Of a stretch of 64,000 nt of DNA, positions 46,192 through 50,770 are shown one piece after another (within the stretch, counting starts at the first letter, position 1; every line of letters begins with the position of its first letter). The stretch lies in the NCBI RefSeq assembly GCF_000230735.2, contig NC_019962.1, positions 868,001-932,000 on the forward strand, written 5' to 3'. The DNA is from Natrinema pellirubrum DSM 15624 (GTDB taxonomy: Archaea > Halobacteriota > Halobacteria > Halobacteriales > Natrialbaceae). The notes under the pieces were generated by a model. It had not been told where the DNA came from, searched no databases, and was given only the letters and a program-made list of their open reading frames with translations. The position numbers and the translations under genes were made by a program.

Positions 46192-47148
46192 TCAGCGGTC
46201 GACGCGTCGGAGCCACGTCCCCGGCGCGTCGAGTTCGTCGTGGCTCGGCAGGTACTCCGGCCCCTCCCAGACGAGACTTGCCGTCTTGAGGTCCCGGACC
46301 GCGACGACGTGTTCGAAGAAGTCCTTGCCGCGTTCGTACTGGCGCTCTTTCAGTCCCAGGCCGAGCAGCCGTCGGAAGAGCTTCTGGATCGGTCCTCGGC
46401 CCTGCCGGCGCTCGTCGAGTTTTCGCCGCAGGTCCTCGTACTCGTCGTCGAAGGCGTGGTCCATCAGGAGTTCGGCGTACCCCTCGACGACGGTCATCGC
46501 GGCGTCGAGATCGCGGAACGCCTCGCGGTCGAACGATCCCTCCGAGAGGTTGGCGATCCCGTCTTCCATGCGGGTCTCGAGGTGGTCCGAGAGCCACGGC
46601 GCGGCCCCGAACTCGGCGGCGTGGGTTACCTCGTGGAAGGCGATCCAGCGGCGGAATCGATCGGCGTCGACGTCGAGTTGGTCGGCCGCGTTGAGGATGT
46701 TCGGCCGGACGAAATACAGCGCGTGGTCGTCGGTCGGGGCGTCGGCGAGCAACAGCGGATCGTACTGACCGAGGACGTTCCGCCCGAGAAAGGAGAGCAT
46801 GACCGTCATCGTCCCCGTGTTGATCGTCCGCGCGATCCCGGGGAAGGTACCGGTGTGGGTCTCGAGGGCACCCATGACCCGTTCGAAGGTGGCGACGTTG
46901 GCGTCGATCCAGTGGTGGCGGTTCTGGATCTCGATCGTCTCGGGGACGTCGAATTCGGCCCCGGAGACGGCGCGGACGGCCGCTCTGGCATCGCGAACGT
47001 CGCGGGCGTAGGCCCCGCGTTCGCCGGCCTCGAGCGCGAGCGAGCCGGGGTCGGTCGCGGCCTTGGCGGCCTCCGCGGCGGATCGCCAGTCGATCGCGTC
47101 GTCACCGGATGCCCCGGCAACTGCCCGGGCGCTACGATAGAGATTCAC
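46192..47148 (-). CDS. Zinc-dependent metalloprotease-like protein (DUF2342 type)
   Basis: A 318-residue protein of the family described as coenzyme F420 biosynthesis-associated (DUF2342). It has RVMGALETHTGTFPGIARTI, LGQYDPLLLAD, LYFVRPNI and the zinc motif FHEVTHAAEFGAAPWL (HExxH, about residues 171-175), and VVEGYAELLMDHAFDDEY. A hydrolase role is inferred from HExxH only. GTG 47148 (NLYRSARAVAG follows) is preferred; TTG 47175 would add nine residues. F420-dependent enzymes such as that at 32966 exist in this genome. Confidence 0.85.
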   Translation of the reverse strand: MNLYRSARAVAGASGDDAIDWRSAAEAAKAATDPGSLALEAGERGAYARDVRDARAAVRAVSGAEFDVPETIEIQNRHHWIDANVATFERVMGALETHTGTFPGIARTINTGTMTVMLSFLGRNVLGQYDPLLLADAPTDDHALYFVRPNILNAADQLDVDADRFRRWIAFHEVTHAAEFGAAPWLSDHLETRMEDGIANLSEGSFDREAFRDLDAAMTVVEGYAELLMDHAFDDEYEDLRRKLDERRQGRGPIQKLFRRLLGLGLKERQYERGKDFFEHVVAVRDLKTASLVWEGPEYLPSHDELDAPGTWLRRVDR

Positions 47149-47246
47149 GACCCCAAATAGGGGAAGGACCCGCAAAAGCGTTCGGCTCAGTGGGCCGATT
47201 CACCGCCGGTCGGTCCGACGCCGGCCGCCGATCAGTCAGGTGGCGA

Positions 47247-47803: not shown

Positions 47804-48028
47804 ATGAGTGGACGACCGCTGGACGTCCTCGAGGCGTCGCTCGGCGAACGCGTCACGGTACGACTCAAGAGCGGCGACGAGTACGTCGGTGATCTCTCCG
47901 GGTACGACCAGCACATGAACCTCGTCCTCGAGGACGTGACGATCCCCGTCGAGGGCGTCGATCAGGAGGCTCCGGCCGAAGACACAACCATTATACGCGG
48001 CGACAACGTCGTCTCGATTACTCCATGA
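47804..48028 (+). CDS. Archaeal Sm-like RNA-binding protein (LSm)
   Basis: A 74-residue Sm-fold protein that forms heptameric rings and binds U-rich RNA; in haloarchaea it affects many sRNA-linked processes. Sm1 is [39 protein letters not shown] (split), Sm2 is [10 protein letters not shown]. It forms a dicistron with rpl37e through a 4-bp ATGA overlap, a gene order found throughout haloarchaea. Confidence 0.96.
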
Positions 48029-48201
48029 CTGGTGCAGGAACCCCGAGCCAAGGAAAGAAGAACAAGACGACCCACACCAAGTGTCGTCGCTGCGGAGAGA
48101 AGTCCTACCACACCAAGAAGAAGGAATGCTCGTCGTGTGGCTTCGGCAAGTCCGCCAAACGCCGCGGCTACGAGTGGCAGTCGAAGTCCGGCGACAACTG
48201 A
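48025..48201 (+). CDS. rpl37e: 50S ribosomal protein L37e
   Basis: A 58-residue ribosomal protein: [20 protein letters not shown], then [10 protein letters not shown] and [18 protein letters not shown], giving the four-cysteine zinc finger of L37e. Short and basic, unlike most proteins here. Overlaps lsm by ATGA at 48025-48028. Confidence 0.96.
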
Positions 48202-48331: not shown

Positions 48332-49525
48332 ATGGAGACGACTGACGCCTTCGCGGGGCTCGAGTGCGTCGACTGCGGGACCGTCATCGAGGCTACCGCC
48401 GAGGCCCACCGATGTCCCGAGTGTGACGGTCCGCTCGACCCGCGCTACGATTACGACGCGATCGACCTCGATCGCGAGACGCTCGAGGGTCGGCCGGCCG
48501 ACTCGCAGTGGCGCTACGCCGAACTGCTGCCGTTTACCCGCGAAACGGCGGTCACGACCCGAGAGGGCGCGACGCCGCTGGTCGACTGTCCCGACCTGGC
48601 CGACGAACTCGGCGTCGAGCGGGTCCTGCTCAAAGACGAAGGCCGGAACCCGACGGGCTCGGTCCGCGACCGCGGCGCGTCGGTTGCGGTCACGGCGGCG
48701 ACCCAAAGCGACGCCGACGATGTCGCGCTCCCGTCGACCGGCAACGGCGGCCAGGCCGCGGCGGCCTACGCGGGCCGGGCCGGCCTCGAGTCCCACGCTT
48801 ACCTCCCCTCGCGCTCGGGCTTTACGAACAAGGCGATGGTCAACGTCCACGGCGGCGACATGAACGTCGTCGGCGGCCGCTACGGCGACGCCGTCGGCGC
48901 GTTCGAAGAGGCGCTCGCCGAACACGACGACTGGTACTCGCTGCGAGCCTTCGAGACGCCCTATCGCCACGAGGGGATCAAGACGCTGTTCTACGAACTC
49001 GTCGAAGACCTCGAGTGGGACGTGCCGGACGCGATCTGTTACCCGACGGGGATCGGGACGGGGATCGTCGGCCTCGCCAAGGCCGCCCGCGAATTCGAGG
49101 AACTGGGGCTGATCGACGAGACGCCCGCACTCTACGCCGCGCAGGCCTCTGGCTGTGCCCCGATCGCGGACGCCGTCGCCGACGGCCGCGACGACCTCGA
49201 TCCCGTCGAGCGCCCCGACACCATCTGTGGCGAACTCGAGATTCCGGACCCGCCGGCCGGCTCGTGGGTCCTCGAGGCGCTCCGGGAGACCGACGGCGAC
49301 GCGGTCGCGACCGACGATCCCGACATCCTCGAGGCGGCCGTGCGGGTGGCCCAGACGACCGGCCTCGAGCCGACCCCGAGCGCGGCGGCGGCCGCCAGCG
49401 GCGCGTGGGAACTCGCCGACCGCGGTGCGTTCGACGGCGACGAGACGGTCGTGATCGTCTCGACGGGCGCGGGCAACAAGGAGGCCGACGTGTTGCGCAG
49501 CCATCTGATGGGACAGGGCATTTAG
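48332..49525 (+). CDS. Threonine synthase-like PLP-fold protein lacking the PLP lysine
   Basis: A 397-residue fold-type II PLP enzyme family member. An N-terminal zinc ribbon (CVDCG at 12-16, CPEC at 28-31) precedes the catalytic fold. The glycine-rich phosphate loop (PSTGNGGQAAAAYA), SRSGFTNKAM, and YPTGIGTGIVGL are as in threonine synthases. However, the motif that normally reads NPTGSFKDRG is NPTGSVRDRG, with Arg112 in place of the lysine that binds PLP. Threonine synthase activity is therefore doubtful. Start METTDAF at 48332. Single gene with its own promoter. Confidence 0.88.
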   Translation: METTDAFAGLECVDCGTVIEATAEAHRCPECDGPLDPRYDYDAIDLDRETLEGRPADSQWRYAELLPFTRETAVTTREGATPLVDCPDLADELGVERVLLKDEGRNPTGSVRDRGASVAVTAATQSDADDVALPSTGNGGQAAAAYAGRAGLESHAYLPSRSGFTNKAMVNVHGGDMNVVGGRYGDAVGAFEEALAEHDDWYSLRAFETPYRHEGIKTLFYELVEDLEWDVPDAICYPTGIGTGIVGLAKAAREFEELGLIDETPALYAAQASGCAPIADAVADGRDDLDPVERPDTICGELEIPDPPAGSWVLEALRETDGDAVATDDPDILEAAVRVAQTTGLEPTPSAAAAASGAWELADRGAFDGDETVVIVSTGAGNKEADVLRSHLMGQGI

Positions 49526-49659: not shown

Positions 49660-49833
49660 ATGTGTGAACATTCACCAGAGTGTTCGAACGGGGTCACGTG
49701 CCAGCTCGTCCTCGAGAACGGTGAGACTGGCCTCGAGACCGCCGAATACTACTGTAAGGCACATCTGGTGCTGCGGATCTGGGAGGTCGAGAACGACAGC
49801 TCGATGCGGGCCGTCAGCGCTGAACAGCTGTAG
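49660..49833 (+). CDS. Small zinc-finger-like protein
   Basis: A 57-residue protein: MCEHSPECSNGVTCQLVLEN, then ETAEYYCKAHLVLRIWEVEN and a short tail ending AEQL. The CEH..C...C and C..H arrangement suggests a treble-clef/zinc-binding fold. It is too short for usual gene-finding thresholds but well formed, with acidic composition. Function unknown. Confidence 0.7.
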   Translation: MCEHSPECSNGVTCQLVLENGETGLETAEYYCKAHLVLRIWEVENDSSMRAVSAEQL

Positions 49834-50068
49834 GCCGGATCGGCCTCGATCGACGCGCTTGCCGTCGCTCACGACCCGATCGTCGCGCCGGGGTCGGCCC
49901 GCCCGCGACCGGGAGGTGAGGGTCGATCGCGCCCGAGGGCCGCGGCGCGCTCGAGTCGGCCAACGACGCACTCGAGCCGGCCGGGCCACTGCCCCCACCG
50001 TGTGACCGCGTCCCTCGCGACGGGGTCGTTCCGTAGCGTTTTTGCTGGTTGTCGGGAAACGACGCGGT

Positions 50069-50770
50069 ATGACTGCCCCCTGGGACGATTGGAACCACGT
50101 TCTCAAGCTCGATCCGGACAAGGAGCTGCCCGAGGGCGTGACCTACGGTGACCTCTGTGCGACCGGAACGGACGCCATCGAGGTCGGCGGGACCATGGGT
50201 ATCACTGAAGAGAACATGAGCGCCGTCATCGAGGCCTGTGCCGAACACGACGTTGCTCTCTATCAGGAGCCGTCCAACCCCGAGGTCGTCCTCGAGGACG
50301 ACGCGTTGGACGGCTATCTCATTCCGACGGTGTTCAACGCCGGGTCGCCGTTCTGGATCACCGAAGCCCACAAAGAGTGGGTCCGCCTCGAGGGCGAACT
50401 CGATTGGGAGCGGACGACGACGGAGGCCTACATCGTGATGAACCCCGAGGCCGACGTCGCGGAGCTGACCGAGGCCAACTGCGACCTGGGTGCCGACGAC
50501 GTCGCCGCCTACGCGACCGTCGCGGAACACATGTTCGGCCAGGAGATCGTCTACGTCGAGTACTCCGGTACCCTCGGCGACGAGGGCGTCGTCCAGGCCG
50601 CCGGCGAGGCGACCGACGAGTCGACGCTGTTCTACGGGGGCGGCATCCACGACTACGACTCCGCGTACTCGATGGCCCAGTACGCCGACGTTATCGTCGT
50701 CGGTGACCTCGCACACGACGAAGGGATCGAGGCGGTCCGCGAGACCGTCGACGCGGCCAACGACGCGTAA
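50069..50770 (+). CDS. Geranylgeranylglyceryl phosphate synthase
   Basis: Makes the first ether bond of archaeal membrane lipids, joining geranylgeranyl diphosphate to sn-glycerol-1-phosphate. The 233-residue TIM barrel has [14 protein letters not shown] (Mg/G1P region), [45 protein letters not shown] (split), [12 protein letters not shown] and [14 protein letters not shown] with the phosphate-binding Gly cluster. Start [10 protein letters not shown] at 50069. An essential house-keeping gene. Confidence 0.96.

Follow-up and report, generated by a model that had tools for sequence, protein, structure and literature searches.

Recurrent loss of the PLP lysine in a threonine synthase paralogue of haloarchaea, a probable pseudoenzyme family

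The genome of Natrinema pellirubrum DSM 15624 encodes a threonine-synthase-like protein with an arginine in place of the lysine that forms the Schiff base with pyridoxal phosphate (PLP). We found the gene in a stretch of 64,000 nucleotides (the window). Judged by its sequence, its product is homologous to enzymes and has lost an essential catalytic residue. The lysine-less protein would almost certainly perform no PLP-lysine catalysis, and it has quite likely retained a non-catalytic role. Overall, we consider it probable that it represents a recurrently evolved PLP pseudoenzyme, that is, a threonine synthase paralogue in which a second, non-catalytic role was kept.

The gene (48332..49525, + strand) starts with the ATG at 48332, a choice set by relatives beginning at the same residue, ends with the stop codon at 49523-49525 and encodes 397 amino acids. 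Codon 112 (48665..48667, + strand) is CGC and places Arg within the motif NPTGSVRDRG. In phmmer alignments with the solved threonine synthases 2zsj, 1uim and 2d1f, Arg112 lies opposite the Lys of NPTGSFKDRG, which bears out the initial annotation of this site. The same annotation described the zinc ribbon, the general fold and the phosphate-binding loop as kept. Its first two statements hold: the N-terminal cysteines C12, C15, C28 and C31 (48365..48424, + strand) are present, as in most family members, and the protein is predicted to fold like threonine synthase. An AlphaFold model based on 40 family sequences (mean pLDDT 90.3, pTM 0.92) has threonine synthases as its best PDB matches, and the model of a lysine-bearing relative matched the same structures; the modelled protein thus has the fold-type II PLP fold of threonine synthase. 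The loop, however, is not kept as such. Residues 238-247 (49043..49072, + strand), which we take to be an altered PLP phosphate loop, read PTGIGTGIVG, with Ile241, versus PTGGGVGLVG in lysine-bearing relatives, and residues 135-141 (48734..48754, + strand) read STGNGGQ versus SAGNAGQ. The protein contains a PALP domain (PF00291, E 2e-66) and scores 323.1 bits with the NCBIfam threonine synthase model NF006050, above the cut-off of 303, and 141.6 bits with the thrC model TIGR00260, below the cut-off of 167.1. It therefore resembles the threonine synthases (NF006050/PRK08197 group; TIGR00260 ThrC) in fold, zinc ribbon, the frame NPTG...DRG and its NF006050 score, but differs in the missing lysine, the altered loop and its TIGR00260 score. 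Lysine-bearing orthologues at the same locus, for example those of Halopiger (L064) and Natrialba (L063), share about 70-78% identity and the same neighbours, but have kept GTFKDRG, SAGNAG and PTGGGVG.

Two further threonine-synthase-like genes of this genome, with 37% and 35% identity, bear the lysine. One of them (L002) is a canonical ThrC with 292.5 bits for TIGR00260, and thrB is present as well. The window gene is thus ruled out as the sole thrC copy. In the class, a ThrC above the TIGR00260 cut-off occurs in 388 of 391 genomes. A second, lysine-bearing family member (L139, G024:C3; 45% identity) was seen on a smaller contig of a Natrinema genome. In Haloferax volcanii, a strain with a transposon insertion in HVO_2969 (thrC3), presumably one of the threonine-synthase-like paralogues, is reported to grow again when given the combination of glycine, serine and threonine (PMC4300041).

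A sequencing error or private mutation is ruled out, since the identical Arg is found in the three closest relatives: Natrinema thermotolerans (L037; 97% identity), N. mahii (L038; 96%) and L010 (95%). The initial annotation had considered a point change in the only copy, which these relatives and the lysine-bearing ThrC exclude; homologues with Lys together with the lack of another thrC in the genome were to suggest a sequence error or private mutation. Homologues with Lys do exist, the other thrC is there, and the pattern is one of repeated loss. A match to the gene was found in all 61 genomes searched (its own and 60 relatives), some of these being the canonical paralogue only. Conservation of the Arg, which the annotation had raised, does not extend across haloarchaeal homologues, where it is one of many replacements. 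Orthologues have K at position 112 in Natrialba, Natronococcus, Halobacterium, Haladaptatus and Halorussus, T, A, R or K in Natrinema, A or T in three species of Natronorubrum and K in a fourth, L in Halorubrum, Halogranum and Halopenitus, D in Halarchaeum, and N in one metagenome-assembled genome; distant family members also show G, Q, F, V and further R. A thinned set of 119 sequences contains K 53 times, L 19, T 16, A 16, R 4, D 3, V 3, I 3, N 1 and M 1. The flanking NPTG...DRG is kept while residue 112 varies. Among 27 sequences of the Natrinema clade it is the 11th most variable of 397 positions, and position 109 is invariant.

At the DNA level, a pattern for the lysine-less motif (GRNPTG, two free codons, a codon with any base but A in the middle, DRG) matched 142 of 391 genomes of the class, and a pattern for the Phe-Lys motif matched 118; both are undercounts because GRNPTG is required, and the former misses residues such as Asn, Asp and Gln, whose codons have A as their middle base. 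The reversed pattern, used as a control, matched 0/391. Both motifs occur together in at least nine genomes (G075, G104, G128, G145, G175, G315, G318, G331, G359). Five Natrinema sequences (L028, L040, L044, L013, L027; motif GTSK or NSTGTSK) have Lys112 amid otherwise lysine-less pocket states. In these, the lysine would be a relic or a return, and PLP binding is probably not restored. We grouped them as lysine-less in the 75- and 74-row trees described below, in the Natrinema variability analysis and in the column and paired tests, and counted them as K in the comparison with the neighbour-gene tree.

For tree building, the pocket columns were omitted. The direction of change is inferred: since the paralogues carry lysine, we treated it as the ancestral state. 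The first careful trees, with 75 and 74 rows, required 4 and 5 state changes, at least 3 and at least 4 of them forced by starred branches, and two earlier tests did not reject a single lysine-less clade (p 0.119 and p 0.067), L078_N being omitted in both from the clade held together. We then added 60 more loci, chosen by motif. For the quick tree we discarded 18 rows that were paralogues, outgroups or partial sequences and another 21 with long branches or frameshifts; thinning the 175 rows kept by identity gave 119. The resulting tree requires 8 changes, 7 of them forced, if the five Natrinema sequences with Lys112 count as lysine-less, and 10 if they count as K. From the 119 rows, 60 were picked by hand, with the newly found near-sister pairs included and those Natrinema sequences absent. 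The careful tree of this set requires 10 changes, at least 8 of them forced, and one lysine-less clade was rejected (AU p 9.4e-5). On the 60-row set, a single origin of all lysine-less copies is therefore rejected, after the two non-significant tests. Its sister pairs include L167_R/L076_K, L169_T/L131_K, L078_N/L075_K and L163+L165_A/L205_K.

We also compared lysine states with a tree built from four of the gene's neighbours at 46 loci. The states are interleaved on it, with 6 changes, at least 4 of them forced; part of the 6 is due to the Natrinema sequences with Lys112 in a lysine-less background. L031_K (G023) and L050_K represent the lysine-bearing form among lysine-less neighbours, and L056_A shows the reverse. 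In all three, the form of the gene at the lsm-rpl37e locus disagrees with the neighbour-gene tree, as though species or genera had swapped alleles. Such mismatches can arise when recombination replaces an allele, when the lysine is lost in parallel, or through both.

Loss of the lysine is accompanied by further changes. We compared 50 lysine-bearing with 69 lysine-less sequences and found 69 columns with at least 95% agreement across the two forms, among them N106, P107, T108, G109, D113, R114, G115, Q141, R161, F164, K167, K217, Q271 and C275. Another 26 columns, including F111, A136, A139, T206, K216, G241, V243, G301, G308 and S310, are conserved in the lysine-bearing form and freed or changed in the lysine-less one. 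In a scan of all 397 columns over 7 phylogenetically independent pairs, in which the Natrinema Lys rows of lysine-less background counted as lysine-less, the top positions after 112 were 308, 136, 111 and 241; each changed in the same direction in about 6 of 7 pairs and in the opposite direction in none, with a value of 0.2 for the median column. We take positions 136-139 and 240-244 to be the PLP-ring and phosphate contacts of threonine synthase. As far as these alignments go, lineages that lost the lysine independently went on to change at the same sites, most of them in the presumed PLP pocket. In the young loss L078_N, only F111C, K112N and V243G are changed among 20 tabulated positions, and in L167_R and L169_T positions 136, 206 and 241 are already changed.

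Such parallel changes are what one would expect if a single shared function had been gained, with the pocket remade after each loss for a new ligand or PLP-free chemistry through adaptive, convergent changes. Separate lineages share the altered positions and in many cases arrive at similar residues: A136 became T or P in 62/69 rows, G308 A or P in 53/69, G301 E in 50/69 and I184 Y or F in 53/69. However, many different residues occur at positions 112, 241 and 206, as would be expected under relaxed constraint; no more than about 2 of the 7 independent pairs show a change at 301 and 184; and canonical ThrC itself has T at 136. We consider this explanation unlikely. A bolder form of it, which we also hold to be improbable, adds that at least eight conversions gave rise to proteins without PLP whose pockets were rebuilt in a partly convergent way and served one shared new purpose, for instance amino-acid sensing that acts on transport or threonine synthesis, and that enzyme and pseudoenzyme alleles swap at one locus between species and genera. 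The retained fold and the many pocket neighbours kept could in turn be read as signs of an enzyme that still binds PLP, without an aldimine, and uses another base. This is very hard to reconcile with a residue 112 that is often aliphatic and a phosphate loop that is altered too, position 241 not being Gly in 97% of the lysine-less rows.

The lysine-less protein has been kept under purifying selection after the loss. The lysine-less clade of Natrinema (351 pairs) and the Natronorubrum group (15 pairs) both had a median dN/dS of 0.163, compared to 0.136 and 0.125 in two lysine-bearing groups; Halarchaeum gave 0.208 (3 pairs) and the lysine-less group of Halorubrum and Halopenitus 0.271 (28 pairs). 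Constraint is not uniform, given the last of these values and the loss of zinc-ribbon cysteines in up to 10 of 66 lysine-less rows. Together with a frameshift near the C terminus in one strain of N. hispanicum, the somewhat higher dN/dS of that one group could suggest a functionless gene that is decaying towards loss in each lineage. But the reading frames are open, dN/dS stays far below 1 across the whole genus and in other families, and 209 of the 397 columns are invariant among the 27 Natrinema sequences, so that we give decay hardly any credence. The first option put forward in the initial annotation, that a lysine-free paralogue would be a pseudoenzyme or have a new role, gains support from this selection and from the lysine-bearing ThrC elsewhere in the genome.

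We then looked for a conserved operon partner, but the neighbours, both at the Natrialbaceae loci and at 36 loci elsewhere, single out no function. Upstream of the gene lie what we take to be an Lsm-like protein (47804-48028, + strand) and ribosomal protein eL37 (48025-48201, + strand); downstream lies a presumed geranylgeranylglyceryl-phosphate-synthase-like gene, "ggps" (50042..50770, + strand), common to many Natrialbaceae loci. The order in this family is lsm-rpl37e-gene-ggps, and both lysine forms occur downstream of lsm and rpl37e. Further upstream, the reading frame at 46192-47175 (- strand), with a presumably zinc-protease-like HEVTH motif, is a neighbour kept in Natrialbaceae loci with either form. 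A small protein of 57 amino acids with several cysteines (49660-49833, + strand) is encoded just 3' of the gene in most Natrinema loci fetched. Outside the Natrialbaceae, 16 of the 36 loci examined have a downstream ORF belonging to the LysE cluster; 6 of the 16 are lysine-bearing and 10 lysine-less. Downstream genes for a DtxR/FeoA regulator, a GDT1 cation antiporter and a LysE-type exporter were seen at L101:7282-9456, L083:7981-9520 and L084:7947-8711; these domains were confirmed with Pfam, DtxR/FeoA at one locus, GDT1 at three and LysE at two. These neighbours hint at amino-acid or metal physiology, but do not explain loss of the lysine because they are the same with both forms. No tandem second copy was found at the examined loci save a weak match (29%) about 4.5 kb away in L098; the same search also picked up, in L055/L034, the two halves of a frameshifted copy.

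The reading we prefer, a pseudoenzyme that has kept a second role, could have come about as follows. The ancestral protein would have borne the lysine and already had two roles, a PLP reaction and a non-catalytic function; we infer the latter because it explains most simply why the lysine was lost again and again while the protein stayed under constraint. The reaction may have become dispensable, perhaps covered by canonical ThrC or another enzyme, while the other role was still needed. Lineages without need of the reaction would then have lost the lysine and let the pocket drift, with the scaffold being maintained by the second role. Closure of the two domains around an amino-acid-like ligand may persist and serve to regulate a partner, for instance ThrC or, where the genes adjoin, a LysE-type exporter. 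Such a ligand-gated partner role in amino-acid metabolism is a working guess that we put forward only tentatively.

Inactive paralogues kept beside an active partner have been described. Examples in which the catalytically dead paralogue is reported to activate its partner are trypanosomatid deoxyhypusine synthase (PMC3663545) and plant PDX1.2; they differ from the haloarchaeal family in their folds and pathways and in having known partners, whereas the family described here shows recurrent loss and candidate partners only. We found no description of lysine-less haloarchaeal threonine synthases in the open-access literature, most subscription journals lying outside the coverage of our search. 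Threonine synthases and pseudoenzymes are both known; what we rate as new is a family of PLP pseudoenzymes that originated several times over, in part recently. For annotation, our results are a warning, since the threonine synthase model NF006050 accepts lysine-less members above its cut-off and would name them threonine synthase. A pseudoenzyme family often traces back to one old loss. Here, there are many replicate losses, some of them young, with lysine-bearing sisters that in places sit at the same locus. This makes the non-catalytic job of the protein testable by comparing sister species.
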